Shown piece by piece: positions 1 through 21,506 of a stretch of 29,739 nucleotides of DNA (its first letter is position 1; each line of letters begins with the position of its first letter). The translations under genes were made by a program, and so were the position numbers. The DNA is taken from positions 1 through 29,739 of the IMG/VR virus record IMGVR_UViG_3300019871_000058; one strand, given 5' to 3'. The notes under the pieces are model-generated. The model saw nothing but the letters and a program-made list of their open reading frames with translations. It ran no database searches and was not told the origin of the DNA. The stretch is from a virus.

Positions 1-363
1 TCATCCCGCTTTTTGTTGTGCAGCTATGCCCTGCTCCTTCAGTTCACTTATTTCTATTTCAAACGCGCGCATCCGGGCATGCAAAATATCAACTTCGGTA
101 CGCAGCATCTGTATTTCGGTTATTAGTTTAGGCGATTCAGATTTATCCATTTTCTTCTCCCCCGTGCCCAATATCAACCATTCGGGCGAATACTTCAACT
201 GGAAACAGAGCTTGCGGATAAGATAATAGCTTACCTCCTGCTTTTTATTGATCACTTTGCTGATAAAGCCCTGGTCAACATTAATAGCGTTGGCAAGCGC
301 CAACTGGCCGCCATATTCCTTAACAATAACCTTTATCCGTTTTACTAATGCATCGTCAGACAT
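1..363 (-). CDS. Small XRE-like HTH regulator with C-terminal coiled coil
   Basis: A 120-residue protein. Residues about 5-65 look like a lambda-repressor-type helix-turn-helix: a first helix, then GGQLALANAINVDQGFISKV as the helix-turn-helix pair, then a 'YYLIRKLCFQLKYSPEWLILG' region matching the last helix and the 'sp.WLl.G' ending common in phage CI/XRE proteins. Residues about 78-115 form a Glu/Leu-rich heptad pattern, probably a dimerising coiled coil. It points the same way as the S24 repressor upstream of it, as in a lysogeny module. A candidate ligand is one of the dyads described elsewhere in the window, but nothing links them directly. The stop codon is exactly at the window edge, so the gene is complete. 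The HTH call is fairly secure; the exact role is unknown. Confidence 0.7.
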   Translation of the reverse strand: MSDDALVKRIKVIVKEYGGQLALANAINVDQGFISKVINKKQEVSYYLIRKLCFQLKYSPEWLILGTGEKKMDKSESPKLITEIQMLRTEVDILHARMRAFEIEISELKEQGIAAQQKAG

Positions 364-430: not shown

Positions 431-492
431 CAATGACCAATGACCAATGACCAATCACTAATCACTAATCACTAATGAGTAATCTCTAATGG
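431..492. repeat. Heptamer tandem array (AATGACC/AATCACT)
   Basis: Eight to nine near-identical 7-bp units run in strict phase: CAATGAC three times, CAATCAC, TAATCAC twice, TAATGAG, TAATCTC, then TAATGG. The array fills the gap between two minus-strand regulator genes and its last unit overlaps the stop codon of the S24 repressor gene. Similar units recur in several other intergenic gaps of this window (about 6190, 8271-8396, 20230-20290, 21580-21620, 22231-22320). Confidence 0.85.
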
Positions 493-1187
493 TTATGCTT
501 CTTATGTATATCCTTAACCAAACAGAGCTTTTTAATATCCGCTATCTTTATTACAAACGGTGCATACTTAAGCTTGCTTCCTATCATTTCGGCCGAGTTG
601 TCAGAGTGGGCGATAACCTCGTCTGCGTTATCACCTGCCAAAAGCCTTTTATACATCCGGTAATCGCCCCATTCAATATAATATACCTCGCCCGGTAATA
701 TTTTCTTATCATGAATAACCTTTAAAGCCACCCAGCAGCCATTCTCCAGGTATGGGTACATGGAGTGCCCCCAAACCGGCAACGCAAAATCACAATCCTC
801 AATTCCGGGGAAATTCATCCGCCCTACCGATTGTGTGTCATTAATATCATTATAAACCTCTACGCCTGATGCGGTAGCTATTATTTCATACATGGGGATG
901 CCGTCGCTAATTTTTGAAATTGCTGTATTTTCAGAATATTCTTTGTTAGCTTTTCCATCAATAAAAGTTCCATATTTCTCTTTAAATAATTTCAATTTTT
1001 CAGGGTCGATATTTTGCCGGCTCTTCACAATTTCTGTAATAGAGCTGATCGAATTAAAACCAAGTTCTGCCGCCAGTAGGGCATTACCGTTAAAAGCTTT
1101 ACCCTTCAATTGATTGTAAAGGATAATAAACTCCAGTGTTTCAGGCCTTATCCTTTTGATCTTATTGGGTTTTTCTTCTGCTTCCAT
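486..1187 (-). CDS. S24-family phage repressor (LexA/CI-like)
   Basis: A 233-residue protein with an N-terminal DNA-binding region (about 15-70, helical, with 'GNALLAAELGFNSISSITEI' as likely HTH) and a C-terminal S24 peptidase fold. The catalytic pair is visible: Ser142 in WGHSMYPYLENGCWVALK and Lys180 in YRMYKRLL. Family members keep a prophage silent and are inactivated by RecA-stimulated self-cleavage. Here the expected Ala-Gly cleavage site is not obvious: the equivalent stretch near residues 103-110 reads ATASGVEV. Induction may therefore use a different scissile bond or an antirepressor. A 7+4+7 dyad lies 36 bp upstream of the start codon and is the natural candidate operator. The start at 1187 is the only ATG giving the full HTH region. 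Confidence 0.85.
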   Translation of the reverse strand: MEAEEKPNKIKRIRPETLEFIILYNQLKGKAFNGNALLAAELGFNSISSITEIVKSRQNIDPEKLKLFKEKYGTFIDGKANKEYSENTAISKISDGIPMYEIIATASGVEVYNDINDTQSVGRMNFPGIEDCDFALPVWGHSMYPYLENGCWVALKVIHDKKILPGEVYYIEWGDYRMYKRLLAGDNADEVIAHSDNSAEMIGSKLKYAPFVIKIADIKKLCLVKDIHKKHNH

Positions 1188-2348: not shown

Positions 2349-2395
2349 TGACAAAACAGCGCCACCAATATATATTTCAAAACACCTTAACTTTG
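2349..2395 (+). promoter_or_regulatory. Composite promoter, copy 4 (TGACA-N6-CGCCA, N21, TAACTTTG)
   Basis: TGACA (2349-2353), 6 bp, CGCCA (2360-2364), CC, exactly 21 bp, then a perfect -7 box TAACTTTG (2388-2395). The same layout and spacing occurs three times before the capsid operon at 18.6-18.9 kb. Here the right half-site is degenerate (CGCCA instead of TGTCA), but the -7 box fits the Bacteroidota consensus better. Transcription would begin near 2402, just before the structured element at 2411. Confidence 0.6.
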
Positions 2396-14335: not shown

Positions 14336-16546
14336 ATGCCAGAAAAAACCAGCAAAAAAAATAGTATCGAAGTACAATTGGATACTGAAAAACTTACCCA
14401 AAACATCAATAGCTTAAATAGTGTGATAGATAACCTGTTGGCAAAACAACAACAGCTAAGTGCGGCTGGGCAGCAAAATTCATCCGCTTTTAATGCATTA
14501 GCCGTCCAATTAACATCCTTTCAGAAAACACTGCTTGATGTAAACACACAGGTTACTACAAACATAACATCGTTCAATGCTTTAAGTGCGGCGGGTAAAA
14601 CATTGGATACGGTTATCTCCGCTAATTCGGCGCAGCACCAAAAAAATGCTTTGGCCCTTACCAATAGTTCTGCAAAAACAAAAGAATTAGCGCAACAGGT
14701 AAATACCCTCGGCAAATCTGTAGATCAGCAAAAGGGTAGCATTGATAATGGTAAGAATTCAATAGATAATTTTTCAGCAAGTATTGCAGGCTCATCGGCC
14801 AGCGCAAATAAACTTCAGGGTGATATAGACAAAACTGGGGCCGCATTTGAAAAGTCGGCAGCAAAAGCAGACCAGAGCAAGTCGAGTTTCGATGCGCATA
14901 AGTTGACGATGGACCATCTTAAAACATCATTTGATGAGGTAAAGGATGTTTCGGGGATATTTGGCCCAAGCCTGCAGGAAGCAGCTAAGGGGTTTGATAT
15001 AATGAAATCGGGGCTTAAAGTAATAAAGGATGGGGTAACCGGCGTTGGTACCGCACTTAAAGCTGATGGCTTTGACTTTTTACTGCAGATACTGCAAAAA
15101 ATGTTTGAATATTTTATCAATACATCAAACGGAGCCAAGGTATTACAGGGTGTAATATCAGCGGTGGGTGTAGTAGTAAATAAAGTTACCGGCTTCTTCC
15201 GTTCATTTATGGATGGAATTATAGCAGCATTTGCGCATCCAGTTGACACATTAAAGTCGCTTGGAACTTTAATAGAGCAAAATCTCATCAATCGCTTTAA
15301 AGCTTTTGGCGAAATATTAGATGGGCTTATTCATCTCGATTTTAAGAAAGTTGCTAATGGAGTTATCCAGGGCTTTACAGGCATTACCAATGCAACGGAC
15401 AAGGCGGTTTCTGCCTATGGCAAGGTAGTAAAAGGCGCTAAAGAAGCTATGGTTCAAATAAACGATGCTTATAAGAAAGGGCATGATGCCATTACTAAAA
15501 CCGGCAGTAACGCAATAAAAAACCCACCCAAACGCAGTACCAATAGCAAGTCCGTCAACAAGACAAACAATGGTCAAAATTTGGTAGGTTTAAATGATCA
15601 GCGGGAGAGTAGTGATCCGCTTGATGCACATTCGGCAGGCCTATTAAGTGATGATGCGGCGCAAACTATTATTCAAATAACAGATCTGGATGTTACTTCC
15701 ACCAAAATAGCCGAAGATCAGAAAGTTTCAATAAAACGAACAGCGCTTCAGCAAGTTGAAGATTTTTCAAAACAATCTGCCTCCCGGATGGAATCTGATG
15801 CTATAAACATTTTAACTAATAGCATTAAACAACAAAGCGACGCTAAAATAGCGGCACTTGAAAAAGACAAAGCCGGCGAATTAAGCAATGCCAATTTAAC
15901 GTCAGCTCAAAAGCTGGCTATTCAGCAAAAATATCAGCAGCAGGAGAACGCGATAAAAACAAAGGCGTTTAAAGAAGAGCAGGAATTATCTATTGCACAA
16001 GCCATAATTAACGGCGCACAGGCCGTAACCAAGGTAACTGCACAATCGGGCCTGCTTGCTGCGTTAGAAATAGGGATTGTTGTTGCAGAAACAGCAGCCC
16101 AGGTATCAAAGATAGCTTCGCAAAAACCACCTGCTTATGCTAAAGGTGGTTTGCATTATGCTTCTGATGGGCGGGGCGGTGTATTGGCCGGTTACAGCCG
16201 TACGGATAATACGAATGCCTATTTACGGTCGGGCGAGGGTGTAGTCGTGTCAGAAGCTATGCGTGTACCCTGGGCGCGCAACCTGGTAAGCGCTATCAAC
16301 GTTGGCTTTGGCGGCCGCGATTTTTCTATAACAAACCCGGGCAGGGGTTATGCGATTGGCGGCATATTTACTGATGGCGGCGATGCCAACCGGTATTATA
16401 ATCAGCCTGTAAATGACCAGCGAAACCTGGCCAATACCATAGCCTACCAAATGGTCAATAACTTTCCGCCGGTGTATGTTGATGTAAAGGATATTAACAA
16501 TCAACAAAACATATTGGCGCAAACTATTAACAGGGTTAACCTTTAA
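14336..16546 (+). CDS. Tape measure protein
   Basis: 736 residues. The first 200 are a long helical, Gln/Asn/Ser-rich coiled region (IEVQLDTEKLTQNINSLNSV onward). A hydrophobic section follows around 240-300 (LLQILQKMFEYFINTSNGAK; GVISAVGVVVNKVTGFFRSF). A second helical stretch near 500-560 contains SAQKLAIQQKYQQQENAIK. The C-terminus is Gly-rich with AYAKGGLHYASDGRGGVLAG and GEGVVVSEAMRV, the 'yaxGG...l..gEgVvn' signature common in tape measure proteins. It sets tail length and lines the tube before injection. At 736 residues it implies a fairly short tail. It follows a terminator and an operator-like dyad, so it may have a promoter of its own, although none is clear. Confidence 0.8.
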   Translation: MPEKTSKKNSIEVQLDTEKLTQNINSLNSVIDNLLAKQQQLSAAGQQNSSAFNALAVQLTSFQKTLLDVNTQVTTNITSFNALSAAGKTLDTVISANSAQHQKNALALTNSSAKTKELAQQVNTLGKSVDQQKGSIDNGKNSIDNFSASIAGSSASANKLQGDIDKTGAAFEKSAAKADQSKSSFDAHKLTMDHLKTSFDEVKDVSGIFGPSLQEAAKGFDIMKSGLKVIKDGVTGVGTALKADGFDFLLQILQKMFEYFINTSNGAKVLQGVISAVGVVVNKVTGFFRSFMDGIIAAFAHPVDTLKSLGTLIEQNLINRFKAFGEILDGLIHLDFKKVANGVIQGFTGITNATDKAVSAYGKVVKGAKEAMVQINDAYKKGHDAITKTGSNAIKNPPKRSTNSKSVNKTNNGQNLVGLNDQRESSDPLDAHSAGLLSDDAAQTIIQITDLDVTSTKIAEDQKVSIKRTALQQVEDFSKQSASRMESDAINILTNSIKQQSDAKIAALEKDKAGELSNANLTSAQKLAIQQKYQQQENAIKTKAFKEEQELSIAQAIINGAQAVTKVTAQSGLLAALEIGIVVAETAAQVSKIASQKPPAYAKGGLHYASDGRGGVLAGYSRTDNTNAYLRSGEGVVVSEAMRVPWARNLVSAINVGFGGRDFSITNPGRGYAIGGIFTDGGDANRYYNQPVNDQRNLANTIAYQMVNNFPPVYVDVKDINNQQNILAQTINRVNL

Positions 16547-17215: not shown

Positions 17216-17452
17216 ATGAATATTAATCTTGCCAATACACTTTTTGATGATGGTATCTTCTCTTCTATGTATAAGGCCGGTTTTATAACCACCAAGGTTT
17301 TTGTTTATCGCGAAATATACCTTTGGGTACAGGCCCAAATAAAAACCCGCGGCATAACCAAAAACCAGGCAGTATTAGCAGCCGAAATAAAATTCAATAA
17401 AGACGAGCGCACTATATGGCGCGCACTAAATAGTTTTGACGATAAAAATTAA
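17216..17452 (+). CDS. Small HTH-like protein (78 aa)
   Basis: 78 residues. Residues about 28-74 (VYREIYLWVQAQIKTRGITK, then NQAVLAAEIKFNKDERTIWR, then ALNSF) read as a three-helix helix-turn-helix of the type 's.qAv.d.ae.f.vs..TIwRai', with ERTIWRAL as the recognition helix. No other domain fits. It lies 90 bp from a divergent secreted-protein gene and 54 bp before the signal peptidase gene, the two probably forming one short transcript. It is 1.2 kb upstream of the triplicated operator array, so it is a candidate late regulator, but that is inference only. Start codon ATG in an AT-rich leader without Shine-Dalgarno, as usual here. Confidence 0.6.
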   Translation: MNINLANTLFDDGIFSSMYKAGFITTKVFVYREIYLWVQAQIKTRGITKNQAVLAAEIKFNKDERTIWRALNSFDDKN

Positions 17453-17506: not shown

Positions 17507-18607
17507 ATGAAATGGAATACGATATTTAAAAAGAAAACAGATACTAACAAACCAAAGAAAAGCAAAACCCGCGAGTGGGTTGATGCGATAGTATTCGCTT
17601 TAGTAGCATCCACTATTATAAGGGGCCTGTTGTTTTCTGCATATGCCATACCTTCAGGTTCTATGGAAGGCACCCAGCTAACCGGCGATTACCTTTTTGT
17701 AAGTAAATTTTCATACGGGCCGCGCATGCCGTTTACGCCAATATCAATCCCATTTACAGAACCGGTAGTAATGGGTGGGGTAAAAACATATTGGGATATA
17801 TTAAAACTACCCTATTTCCGTTTACCCGGAACATCAGAAGTTAAAAAAGGCGATATTGTAGTCTTCAATAAACCGTCAGAAGCCGATGCCAACATACCGG
17901 TGGACATGCGTACAACCTTAATTAAACGCTGCCAGGCTACACCCGGTGACTTGTTGACCATTGTTAACGCGCAAGTTTATATAAATGGCAAGGCTGCTAA
18001 TAATGCGTCAAAAGCCCAAACATCATACAAAGTGATAACGGATGGCAAGTACATTAACCCGCAGTTATTTACAGATCTCAATATTACCGTATTACAGCAA
18101 ACCGCTGCGGATACCTATGAAATGATCGTCCCGAGTGATAACCTGGCTACTTTAAAAAGTTATTCGAACATCAGGTTTGTTGCACCGGTTATACAGCCTG
18201 CGGGTCAATATGATGCAGAGATATTTCCGAACAATAAAAACTTTAAATGGAACCTTGACAATTTTGGCCCGCTTGTTCTTCCTAAAAAAGGGATGACCAT
18301 AAAGCTGAACGACTCTACCCTAACACTCTATCGTCGTGCTATCGAAACCTATGAGCATAACAAAGTTGAAACAGCCGGAACCAGCATATTGGTCAACGGT
18401 AAAAATGCCGATTCTTATACCTTTAAAATGAATTACTACTGGATGATGGGCGACAACCGCCATGATTCACTTGATTCACGCTTTTGGGGATATGTACCCG
18501 AAGACCATATTGTTGGCAAGGCAATGCTAACGTGGATGAGTATTGATTCGACCAAAGATGTTTTCCATAAAATACGCTGGAACAGGATATTGAAGCCAAT
18601 AAATTGA
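17507..18607 (+). CDS. lepB: Type I signal peptidase
   Basis: 366 residues. A basic N-terminus, one membrane anchor (about 26-46, VDAIVFALVASTIIRGLLFS), then box B AIPSGSMEGT with catalytic Ser52, box D TLIKRCQATPGD with general-base Lys140, and box E MMGDNRHDSLDSR (313-325), followed by GYVPEDHIVGKAMLTW. The long insert between boxes D and E (about 155-305) is typical for Bacteroidota. All catalytic elements are intact, so it should cleave Sec and Tat signal peptides at the periplasmic face. Hosts normally encode their own lepB elsewhere; a copy between tape measure and protease genes is unusual. It follows the HTH-like gene on the same strand. The first of three composite promoters begins 5 bp after its stop codon. 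Confidence 0.92.
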   Translation: MKWNTIFKKKTDTNKPKKSKTREWVDAIVFALVASTIIRGLLFSAYAIPSGSMEGTQLTGDYLFVSKFSYGPRMPFTPISIPFTEPVVMGGVKTYWDILKLPYFRLPGTSEVKKGDIVVFNKPSEADANIPVDMRTTLIKRCQATPGDLLTIVNAQVYINGKAANNASKAQTSYKVITDGKYINPQLFTDLNITVLQQTAADTYEMIVPSDNLATLKSYSNIRFVAPVIQPAGQYDAEIFPNNKNFKWNLDNFGPLVLPKKGMTIKLNDSTLTLYRRAIETYEHNKVETAGTSILVNGKNADSYTFKMNYYWMMGDNRHDSLDSRFWGYVPEDHIVGKAMLTWMSIDSTKDVFHKIRWNRILKPIN

Positions 18608-18611
18608 TTAC

Positions 18612-18658
18612 TGACAAAATGGTGTCACCGCACAATTAAAGTATTCTGTCGATATTTG
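18612..18658 (+). promoter_or_regulatory. Composite operator-promoter, copy 1
   Basis: TGACA (18612-18616), AAATGG, TGTCA (18623-18627), CC, 21 bp, GATATTTG (18651-18658). The dyad covers the place of a -33 box and the -7 box has G for T at its first base. A CGGTGAAATCA motif follows near 18671. It belongs to a 411-bp gene-free region (18608-19018) made mostly of three such units. Confidence 0.65.
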
Positions 18659-18712
18659 TAATACACCTGACCGGTGAAATCAATAACTAATTAGCTCAAT
18701 CATCATAACTAC

Positions 18713-18759
18713 TGACAAACTACTGTCACCACTAATCAAAATAATTATCCCGACCTTTG
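18713..18759 (+). promoter_or_regulatory. Composite operator-promoter, copy 2
   Basis: TGACA (18713-18717), AACTAC, TGTCA (18724-18728), CC, 21 bp, GACCTTTG (18752-18759). It starts 101 bp after copy 1, is followed at 18764 by an ATGCC-N4-RGCAT dyad, and again by CGGTGAAATCA near 18790. Confidence 0.65.
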
Positions 18760-18763
18760 ATAT

Positions 18764-18777
18764 ATGCCAACCAGCAT
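18764..18777. promoter_or_regulatory. ATGCC-AACC-AGCAT dyad, copy 4
   Basis: Same conserved positions as the copies at 2199, 5627 and 14299. It begins 5 bp after the -7 box of composite promoter 2, so it covers the expected transcription start, as copy 2 does at the terminase promoter. Confidence 0.5.
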
Positions 18778-18832
18778 AACCAACACAATCGGTGAAATCA
18801 TAAATCAATCGATGTAATCACAAAAAATATAC

Positions 18833-18879
18833 TGACAAACTACTGTCACCACCCAGTTAAACTATTACCCCGATATTTG
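18833..18879 (+). promoter_or_regulatory. Composite operator-promoter, copy 3
   Basis: TGACA (18833-18837), AACTAC, TGTCA (18844-18848), CC, 21 bp, GATATTTG (18872-18879), then TATATATCAGTTAGCAAT. The upstream 20 bp are identical to copy 2. It is the copy nearest the protease gene, leaving a leader of about 130 bases in which a weak hairpin CAGGA/TCCTG (18908-18923) is followed by a T-rich stretch. Confidence 0.65.
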
Positions 18880-20294: not shown

Positions 20295-21506
20295 ATGGCT
20301 CAATTTACATTTACAAACAACACCTATGCCGGCGAAGCGCTGGCCGGGTTTATGGCCAGCACGCTGCTGGAGGCCGATTCGGTTAAACGCGGGTTACTAA
20401 CTGTTATTAATGACGTTAAATCGCGCAAGGTAATACTTGATGTTGACGATGACGTAGTGCTGCAGGACCCATCAGGCGTATTTACCGATCAGGGTACAAC
20501 TGCCGCGCAAAACGAAAGCTACCTCGACCCGGTAGTGTACGAATTCATGAAACAGGAACAATGGGATAAGCTCATCCAGTCATGGGAAGCGCAAAGCTTA
20601 AAACCCGGCGCTTTCTTAGATTATGAAGGCGTAGTAGATCTGTCCGACTTTATGGTACAACGTTATTTAACCAAGATACAGATCGCTAATGAGCGTTTAT
20701 ATTGGTTAGGGAAATCAGCCACAAAAGAAGCAGCATTTACAGCAGCATTTCCCGGCTTATTGCCAACCATTGCAGCGGCATCTGGCATTTATAAAGTTGG
20801 CCTGGGCAAACCTGCAACCTCAATGGCCGCAACAGCCATCAGCGCTTCGGGCATAGTAACCGTATCTGATACTTCAACCCTATCCGATGGCGATGTAGTA
20901 ACCATCACCGCAGTGACAGGCTCAAGCAAGGACACAACAAATGGCTCATCAGGTGCTCCTGATGTACAGGGCCAATCTTACTTTATACAGGTTGCAAGCT
21001 CAACTACGTTTAAGCTGGTTCGTAATTACAACGAGGTAAACACCCGCAAACCGGCTACCTTCTCTGGTACTTCAACAGAAGCAACTGTTAGCTACATTAA
21101 CGCCAGCAATGTGTTAAGTGTGTTGACCAGTGTTTACGCGCAGCTTGATCCGGCAGATCGTAGCCAGGAAGACTTTAACCTGCAAATACCTTTACACGTA
21201 GGGTATGCTTATGCACAGGCGCAAGCCAACAAAGCGGTAAATGTATTAAATGCCTTTACCGATCCGAAAAAAATGGATTACCTGGGCGTTCCGCTGCAAT
21301 TAATGAACCACTGGCAGGCAAACACCATATTGGGCGCACGTTCTTCCAACTTGTTCTTAGGTGTAGATCTGTTAGGCGATGCATCAGAGCTTTCAACTGT
21401 TTACATGAAGCCTTACACCAACGACAATATTGTCCGCATGAAAGCCCGTATGAAGGCCGCAGTAAACTACAAGTTCGCTAACGAGATCTTTTATCTAAGC
21501 GCATAA
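20295..21506 (+). CDS. Major capsid protein
   Basis: 403 residues, directly after the protease-scaffold gene, the standard place. The N-terminal part (LAGFMASTLLEADSVKRGLL, then VINDVKSRKVILDVDDDVV) and C-terminal part (LGVPLQLMNHWQANTILGAR; VYMKPYTNDNIVRMKARMKA; VNYKFANEIFYLSA) have the helix/strand alternation and ending of HK97-fold capsids of Bacteroidota phages. Between about 178 and 268 there is an inserted Ser/Thr/Gly-rich beta domain (GIVTVSDTSTLSDGDVVTIT; YFIQVASSTTFKLVRNYNEV), probably exposed as a decoration domain on the capsid surface. No obvious N-terminal cleavage site is visible, so maturation may act mainly on the scaffold. The 82-bp gap upstream is made of ACTCA/AATCA-type low-complexity units. 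Confidence 0.8.
   Translation: MAQFTFTNNTYAGEALAGFMASTLLEADSVKRGLLTVINDVKSRKVILDVDDDVVLQDPSGVFTDQGTTAAQNESYLDPVVYEFMKQEQWDKLIQSWEAQSLKPGAFLDYEGVVDLSDFMVQRYLTKIQIANERLYWLGKSATKEAAFTAAFPGLLPTIAAASGIYKVGLGKPATSMAATAISASGIVTVSDTSTLSDGDVVTITAVTGSSKDTTNGSSGAPDVQGQSYFIQVASSTTFKLVRNYNEVNTRKPATFSGTSTEATVSYINASNVLSVLTSVYAQLDPADRSQEDFNLQIPLHVGYAYAQAQANKAVNVLNAFTDPKKMDYLGVPLQLMNHWQANTILGARSSNLFLGVDLLGDASELSTVYMKPYTNDNIVRMKARMKAAVNYKFANEIFYLSA

Follow-up and report, generated by a model that had tools for sequence, protein, structure and literature searches.

We consider a phage-like element of soil bacteria of the genus Mucilaginibacter, carried on a virus record of 29,739 nucleotides (IMGVR_UViG_3300019871_000058, called the window below because the whole of it was analysed), whose genes include those for a terminase, a portal, a protease, a putative capsid, tail proteins and a lysozyme. 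Among the window proteins, some of which have no match of any kind, no integrase, transposase or replication gene is recognisable by PHROG or Pfam. Just upstream of the head genes stands an array of three candidate promoter units, and a fourth, divergent unit lies elsewhere in the window. The features are as follows.

1..363, minus strand: 120-aa XRE-like regulator, a gene of the host locus
486..1187, minus strand: regulator with XRE HTH and S24 peptidase domains, a gene of the genus Mucilaginibacter and not of the phage
2349..2395, plus strand: unit 4, divergent: its dyad has two mismatches, its -7 box TAACTTTG is of host type and the 21-bp spacing is kept
17216..17452, plus strand: 78-aa protein between the tape measure and the array, with a predicted five-helix HTH-like fold
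17507..18607, plus strand: signal peptidase I-like (Peptidase_S26) protein, encoded 3' of the 78-aa gene and before the array
18612..18658, plus strand: candidate promoter unit 1, with dyad TGACA-AAATGG-TGTCA (18612-18627), CC, 21-bp spacer and -7 box GATATTTG (18651-18658)
18672..18682, plus strand: CGGTGAAATCA, copy 1, between units; several relatives have copies of the similar AATCGGTGAAATCA after units
18713..18759, plus strand: candidate promoter unit 2, with dyad (18713-18728), CC, 21-bp spacer and -7 box GACCTTTG (18752-18759)
18763..18778, plus strand: TATGC-CAACCA-GCATA, a dyad or 5' hairpin directly 3' of the unit 2 -7 box
18790..18800, plus strand: CGGTGAAATCA, copy 2, between units
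18833..18879, plus strand: candidate promoter unit 3, with dyad (18833-18848), CC, 21-bp spacer and -7 box GATATTTG (18872-18879)
~18663, ~18764 and ~18884, plus strand: predicted +1 of units 1, 2 and 3, with the -7 box set at -12 to -5 after PMC9723704
19019..20212, plus strand: head maturation protease (ClpP type), the first head gene 3' of the array
20295..21506, plus strand: putative major capsid protein, so named because it lies between protease and portal; it matches a PHROG of unknown function

Of 101 Mucilaginibacter genomes, 53 have a match to the capsid protein, almost always as one copy (one match is marginal and several are partial), and identity is mostly 83-92% over the full length. 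The genes of the left flank are common to 16 of 24 genomes, the locus being different in the remaining 8; pieces of the element are kept at that locus in five species without a capsid match, and flank genes only in two. Distances between capsid proteins correlate with those between ArgS proteins (Mantel r 0.56, reached in 0 of 5000 permutations, slope 0.65).

The relatives also differ in structure. The signal peptidase I-like gene, which lies inside the structural cluster, is optional, being present in some relatives only. Recurrent deletions, noted at nine loci (L075, L066, L169, L237, L016, L311, L313, L315 and L392), have their start in the large terminase gene, at codon 101 or close to it; the window positions that correspond to the deletion sites are about 6502, 16500-16546 and 20559. 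In L075, L066 and L169 the sequence shows terminase codon 101 fused to what is left of the tape measure gene, its final 13 codons, and L237 and L016 are cut likewise at terminase codon 101. In three species (G029, G264, G314) the terminase deletion is joined to capsid codon 88, and in G218 it is joined close to a 150-aa gene. In M. sp. E4BP6 (G031, loci L317/L318) a segment of ~10 kb is inverted; its ends lie within the 835-aa tail gene and at capsid codon 94, the latter close to where other species have their deletion.

Geometry of the promoter units

The original prediction described three units in which TGACA-N6-TGTCA-CC is followed, after exactly 21 bp, by GAnnTTTG, with starts at 18612, 18713 and 18833. 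This description is exact, and the G at position 1 of each of the three -7 boxes and the two occurrences of CGGTGAAATCA between units (at 18672 and 18790) are confirmed as well. Units 1-3 contain the only exact TGACA-N6-TGTCA dyads in the 29.7-kb record, where the reversed-pattern control gives 0 matches and where the number of near matches is reached by 0 of 100 dinucleotide shuffles. Unit 4, which like the TATGC-CAACCA-GCATA dyad is absent from the original prediction, has the form TGACAAAACAGCGCCACC-N21-TAACTTTG and lies 177 bp upstream of a 103-aa ORF at 2573.

To place these units on a promoter scale, we use the sigma-A box of Flavobacterium psychrophilum, TAnnTTTG, which lies at -12 to -5 (PMC9723704). 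With the -7 boxes set at these positions, the start sites are predicted near 18663, 18764 and 18884, and the centre of the dyad falls at -43.5 relative to these predicted starts, with the dyad where the -33 box would be. The same geometry is found in phage Mu, whose Mor site consists of two 5-bp inverted repeats within 16 bp, centred at -43.5 (PMC4390567). Both the middle promoter Pm with Mor and the late promoters with C have a 16-bp element at -43.5 instead of the -35 box usual with a primary sigma factor (PMC4390567), and the Mu system governs phage gene expression, as the array here would. The present units differ from those of Mu in their sequence, in their phylum and sigma factor, in their tandem arrangement (1 to at least 22 units per array) and in that the site is also found at host promoters; by sequence, no Mor/C homologue is found.

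Two other promoter types invite comparison. With the canonical sigma-A promoter of Bacteroidota (-33 TTTG, -7 TAnnTTTG) the units share a -7 box with the conserved A and TTTG, and the host copies of the composite have TAnnTTTG itself; they differ in that a 16-bp dyad at fixed spacing replaces the -33 box and that the -7 box of the phage copies starts with G. Class II activator sites of the CRP/FNR family have 5-bp half-sites with a 6-bp spacer and lie over the -33/-35 region, so the dyad resembles them in half-sites, spacer and placement. We know of no CRP/FNR consensus that the TGACA half-site would match, and no protein of CRP/FNR type could be linked to the dyad in this analysis.

Conservation in related arrays

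Using the head protease as the query, we obtain 33 related loci in viral contigs, and nearly all of those with enough upstream DNA have 1-5 units, on the coding strand and clustered by the protease gene. Viral contigs and genome loci together provide 182 units in 74 distinct protease-upstream regions (1-5 per region), and in every unit of these regions that has a -7 box the spacing is 21 bp, even though 15-27 bp was allowed. The dyad and its spacing upstream of the protease, which were expected to be conserved in related prophages, are thus kept, and the original prediction therefore stood up to this comparison. The profile of the 178 distinct units reads TACTGACAAAnYAnTGTCACCA, AAA in the middle of the spacer, and then TnTCCCGAYMTTTG; both half-sites and the -7 box are near invariant, and the first -7 position is G in 96% of the phage units. 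No -33 TTTG or TTG element appears in this position profile, and the dyad and CCA are found there instead, which bears out the proposal that the dyad occupies the -33 position.

An unbiased test is provided by a scan of the viral contigs for the dyad only, in which the -7 box is not required. Among the 41 stretches found, 33 belong to this family and have the -7 box at the expected place, while the other 8 are unrelated to the family and have no -7 box. We therefore see the array as a conserved promoter-like class and not a local curiosity, with its function assigned by comparison. A special meaning of the triplication did not hold up, because the arrays vary from 1 unit to at least 22; the longest, in the G270 prophage, consists of near-identical tandem units with a 159-bp period and is split across two contig ends (L272-L274). 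The spacings between units have a resultant length of 0.24 at a helical period of 10.5 bp (108 spacings, which are non-independent). The literature searched holds nothing relevant on Mucilaginibacter phages or on Bacteroidota phage promoters built in this way, and the phage genome collection gives a single short match only.

The TATGC-N6-GCATA (TATGCCA-type) element is a companion of the array, being found in 71 of the 74 related arrays, usually once per array and either after a CTTTG-type -7 box or some tens of bases beyond it. In the window it forms the start of a 17-codon ORF (MPTSITNTIGEIINQSM). In six relatives (L021, L045, L052, L086, L094, L175) it opens a hydrophobic ORF of 25-30 codons (MPIxITII..YLxALL), and a REQSVES-like end is conserved in several of these small ORFs.

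Host copies of the composite and candidate readers

The composite of dyad and -7 box is not confined to the phage, as a phage-only promoter class would demand; it also stands at Mucilaginibacter host loci without phage genes. Of 60 such non-phage sites, 58 are intergenic and 50 carry the canonical -7 box TAnnTTTG; in 46 of 55 the ORF that follows has the orientation of the site. Because these 50 host dyads carry a sigma-A box, a non-primary sigma factor, which had been offered as one way of reading the units, is unsupported; what survives of the original prediction, by comparison, is a dimer-type site fixed to a -7 box before the protease-capsid operon. With at most one mismatch the composite is found in 75 of 101 Mucilaginibacter genomes, and it is found in 64 of 400 Sphingobacteriaceae genomes (prophage copies are included in both counts, and the reversed-pattern controls are near 0). 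Genes downstream of host copies include those for an ATPase with an AAA_25 domain and an HTH, nuoH and those for small secreted proteins, the latter two named by sequence.

Some genomes are rich in copies: E4BP6 has 16 host and 3 prophage copies, and G440 has about 29, with a site that is a longer palindrome, GTACTGACA-AAACAG-TGTCAGTAC. Some of the host copies in these two genomes lie in convergent intergenic regions, and the sequence that they have in common exceeds the needs of a promoter; a portion of the host set may therefore have spread by copying, as a dispersed repeat, and not be a regulon. At five convergent loci of E4BP6 (L211, L213, L219, L222, L223) a hairpin and a boxA-like GTTCTTTGAAAT/GTTCTTTGACAT follow the site, and the boxA-like sequence also follows a G440 host copy in a convergent intergenic region (L259); the E4BP6 host-copy loci have no match in Rfam. 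The hairpin and GTTCTTTGAAAT after some E4BP6 copies had raised the suspicion of an rRNA-promoter origin, which we rejected: upstream of the 16S rRNA genes the dyad is absent at eight loci of the same hosts.

Which protein, then, reads the dyad? The most likely reader, as far as sequences can tell, is a host-encoded dimer that would use the composite at host promoters also, because the dyad type agrees between phage and host in the 16 genomes that have both (13 TGTCACC and 3 TGTCAGC-like). One prophage unit among the three TGTCAGC genomes is TGTCAAC, and E4BP6 has one host site of the other flanking type. By a hand-worked permutation that ignores relatedness the agreement has a chance of 1 in 560; relatedness could produce it instead.

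Two host proteins were considered as the reader and set aside. The S24 regulator (486-1187) is present in 14 of 14 motif-bearing genomes tested, and is made unlikely by the different, AAGAATAATCTTTA-like dyad in its upstream region, where the capsid-array dyad is missing; this other dyad has a single window copy (1226-1239), is conserved genus-wide before the regulator (L277-L402) and is probably the regulator's own operator. The AAA_25-HTH ATPase occurs in 12 of 13 motif genomes and in 0 of 7 others, the 7 being from the family and not the genus. The site is constant whereas the recognition helix of the ATPase is variable, so we take the protein as a target and not as the reader. This ATPase, with its C-terminal HTH, is a solitary gene of up to 8 copies per genome, often with the composite upstream (L177, L114, L229 and about 20 other loci).

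Interpretation of the array

The reading that we hold to be somewhat probable is that the array represents three tandem activator-dependent sigma-A promoters for the protease-capsid-portal operon, with a host-encoded regulator as the most likely reader. A dimer would bind the 16-bp palindrome, which has its centre at -43.5 and takes the position of the -33 box, and would help RNA polymerase use the imperfect -7 box GAnnTTTG, much as Mor does at the Mu middle promoter. The host-encoded regulator would read the same composite at the host's own promoters, so that head-gene expression would be tied to a host signal, and the number of units may set promoter strength. That the units are promoters, that the dimer activates and does not repress, and that it is host-encoded are points that we infer from sequence comparison. 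Against this reading, the phage -7 box has a G where sigma-A prefers a T, and the 78-aa HTH-like protein beside the array could be the phage's own reader.

This last objection leads to a version of the same array that we consider unlikely, in which the element itself supplies the activator: the 78-aa protein, whose gene closes the tail block, would act as a Mor/C-like late activator of the head operon. This protein and the 120-aa regulator are the two candidate binders named in the original prediction. Its position between tape measure and array is conserved in nearly all relatives that have this DNA, and its AlphaFold model (pLDDT 95, five helices) has middling structural matches to HTH proteins, which include Mu Mor (in its C-terminal part, with 53 aligned and Z 5.7, where helical proteins call for a Z of 8 or more), Mu transposase Ibeta, TnpE and TrpR. 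The gene is missing, however, from six genomes that have the composite at host loci only, and the protein has no significant match in PHROG, Pfam, NCBIfam, PDB sequences or Foldseek, nor a profile match to the HTH of the AAA_25 ATPase. One species with host copies alone in which the 78-aa gene was not found is M. oryzae. A repressor in place of an activator is still less probable: here the dyad would be an operator at which a host factor or a neighbouring XRE regulator covers the -33 region, and its removal under stress would induce the head genes. In favour of this, the dyad does cover that region, and of the two XRE-type regulators encoded at the left end of the window one has an S24 (LexA/CI-like) domain. 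Against it, the units lack a -33 element that could work once a repressor has left, the fixed 21-bp spacing fits contact with polymerase, and the array dyad is missing from the promoters of both regulators, the 120-aa regulator (whose gene is found also where the element is absent) and the S24 regulator with its own conserved dyad.

The array could also be no promoter of the capsid operon at all, and serve instead as a decoy, by which a host regulator is titrated, or as a row of small RNA genes, which we regard as very improbable. Arrays of up to at least 22 units would suit a decoy, and many inter-unit segments of relatives contain strong hairpins (mean z -2.2, n=91). The inter-unit segments of the window, however, fold no better than shuffles (z about -1), a decoy would need neither a -7 box nor a fixed spacing, and the arrays that we find are upstream of the protease. 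We return, then, to host-regulated sigma-A promoters as the preferred reading: since the switch also stands before host genes, a host protein is suggested to help time phage head production.

Such control raises the question of a gene-transfer-agent-like role, which is possible from the genes of the element. Like RcGTA and CcGTA, the element combines genes for head, packaging, tail and lysis with the lack of a recognisable integrase or replication gene, and is often at one host locus; the facts suit a long-resident, partly domesticated element. GTAs are under the control of a host regulator (PMC6363796, PMC11150451), and on the preferred reading the element would resemble them in this as well. 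It differs from RcGTA and CcGTA in that its particle production and packaging of host DNA are putative, and in its presence in about half of the species, with deleted forms in several. A GTA-like, host-resident capsid system of Mucilaginibacter, whose head operon a host regulator turns on through an array that varies from 1 to at least 22 units and is copied from a host promoter class, is a reading that we consider unlikely; the literature searched contains no GTA of Bacteroidota, and if true, this one would be the first by that search and would extend such systems to a new phylum.

The kind of array described here is known in outline from phage Mu, and by sequence comparison is new in its sequence, its phylum, its arrayed form and its sharing with the host. 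It would represent a Bacteroidota promoter class, of which we find no description in the literature searched, in which the -33 box gives way to a 16-bp dyad at -43.5, and which a phage-like element shares with its hosts. The composite site is a ready bait for the Mucilaginibacter protein that would read it; arrays that naturally range from 1 to at least 22 units also allow one to test whether promoter copy number tunes the production of phage heads.
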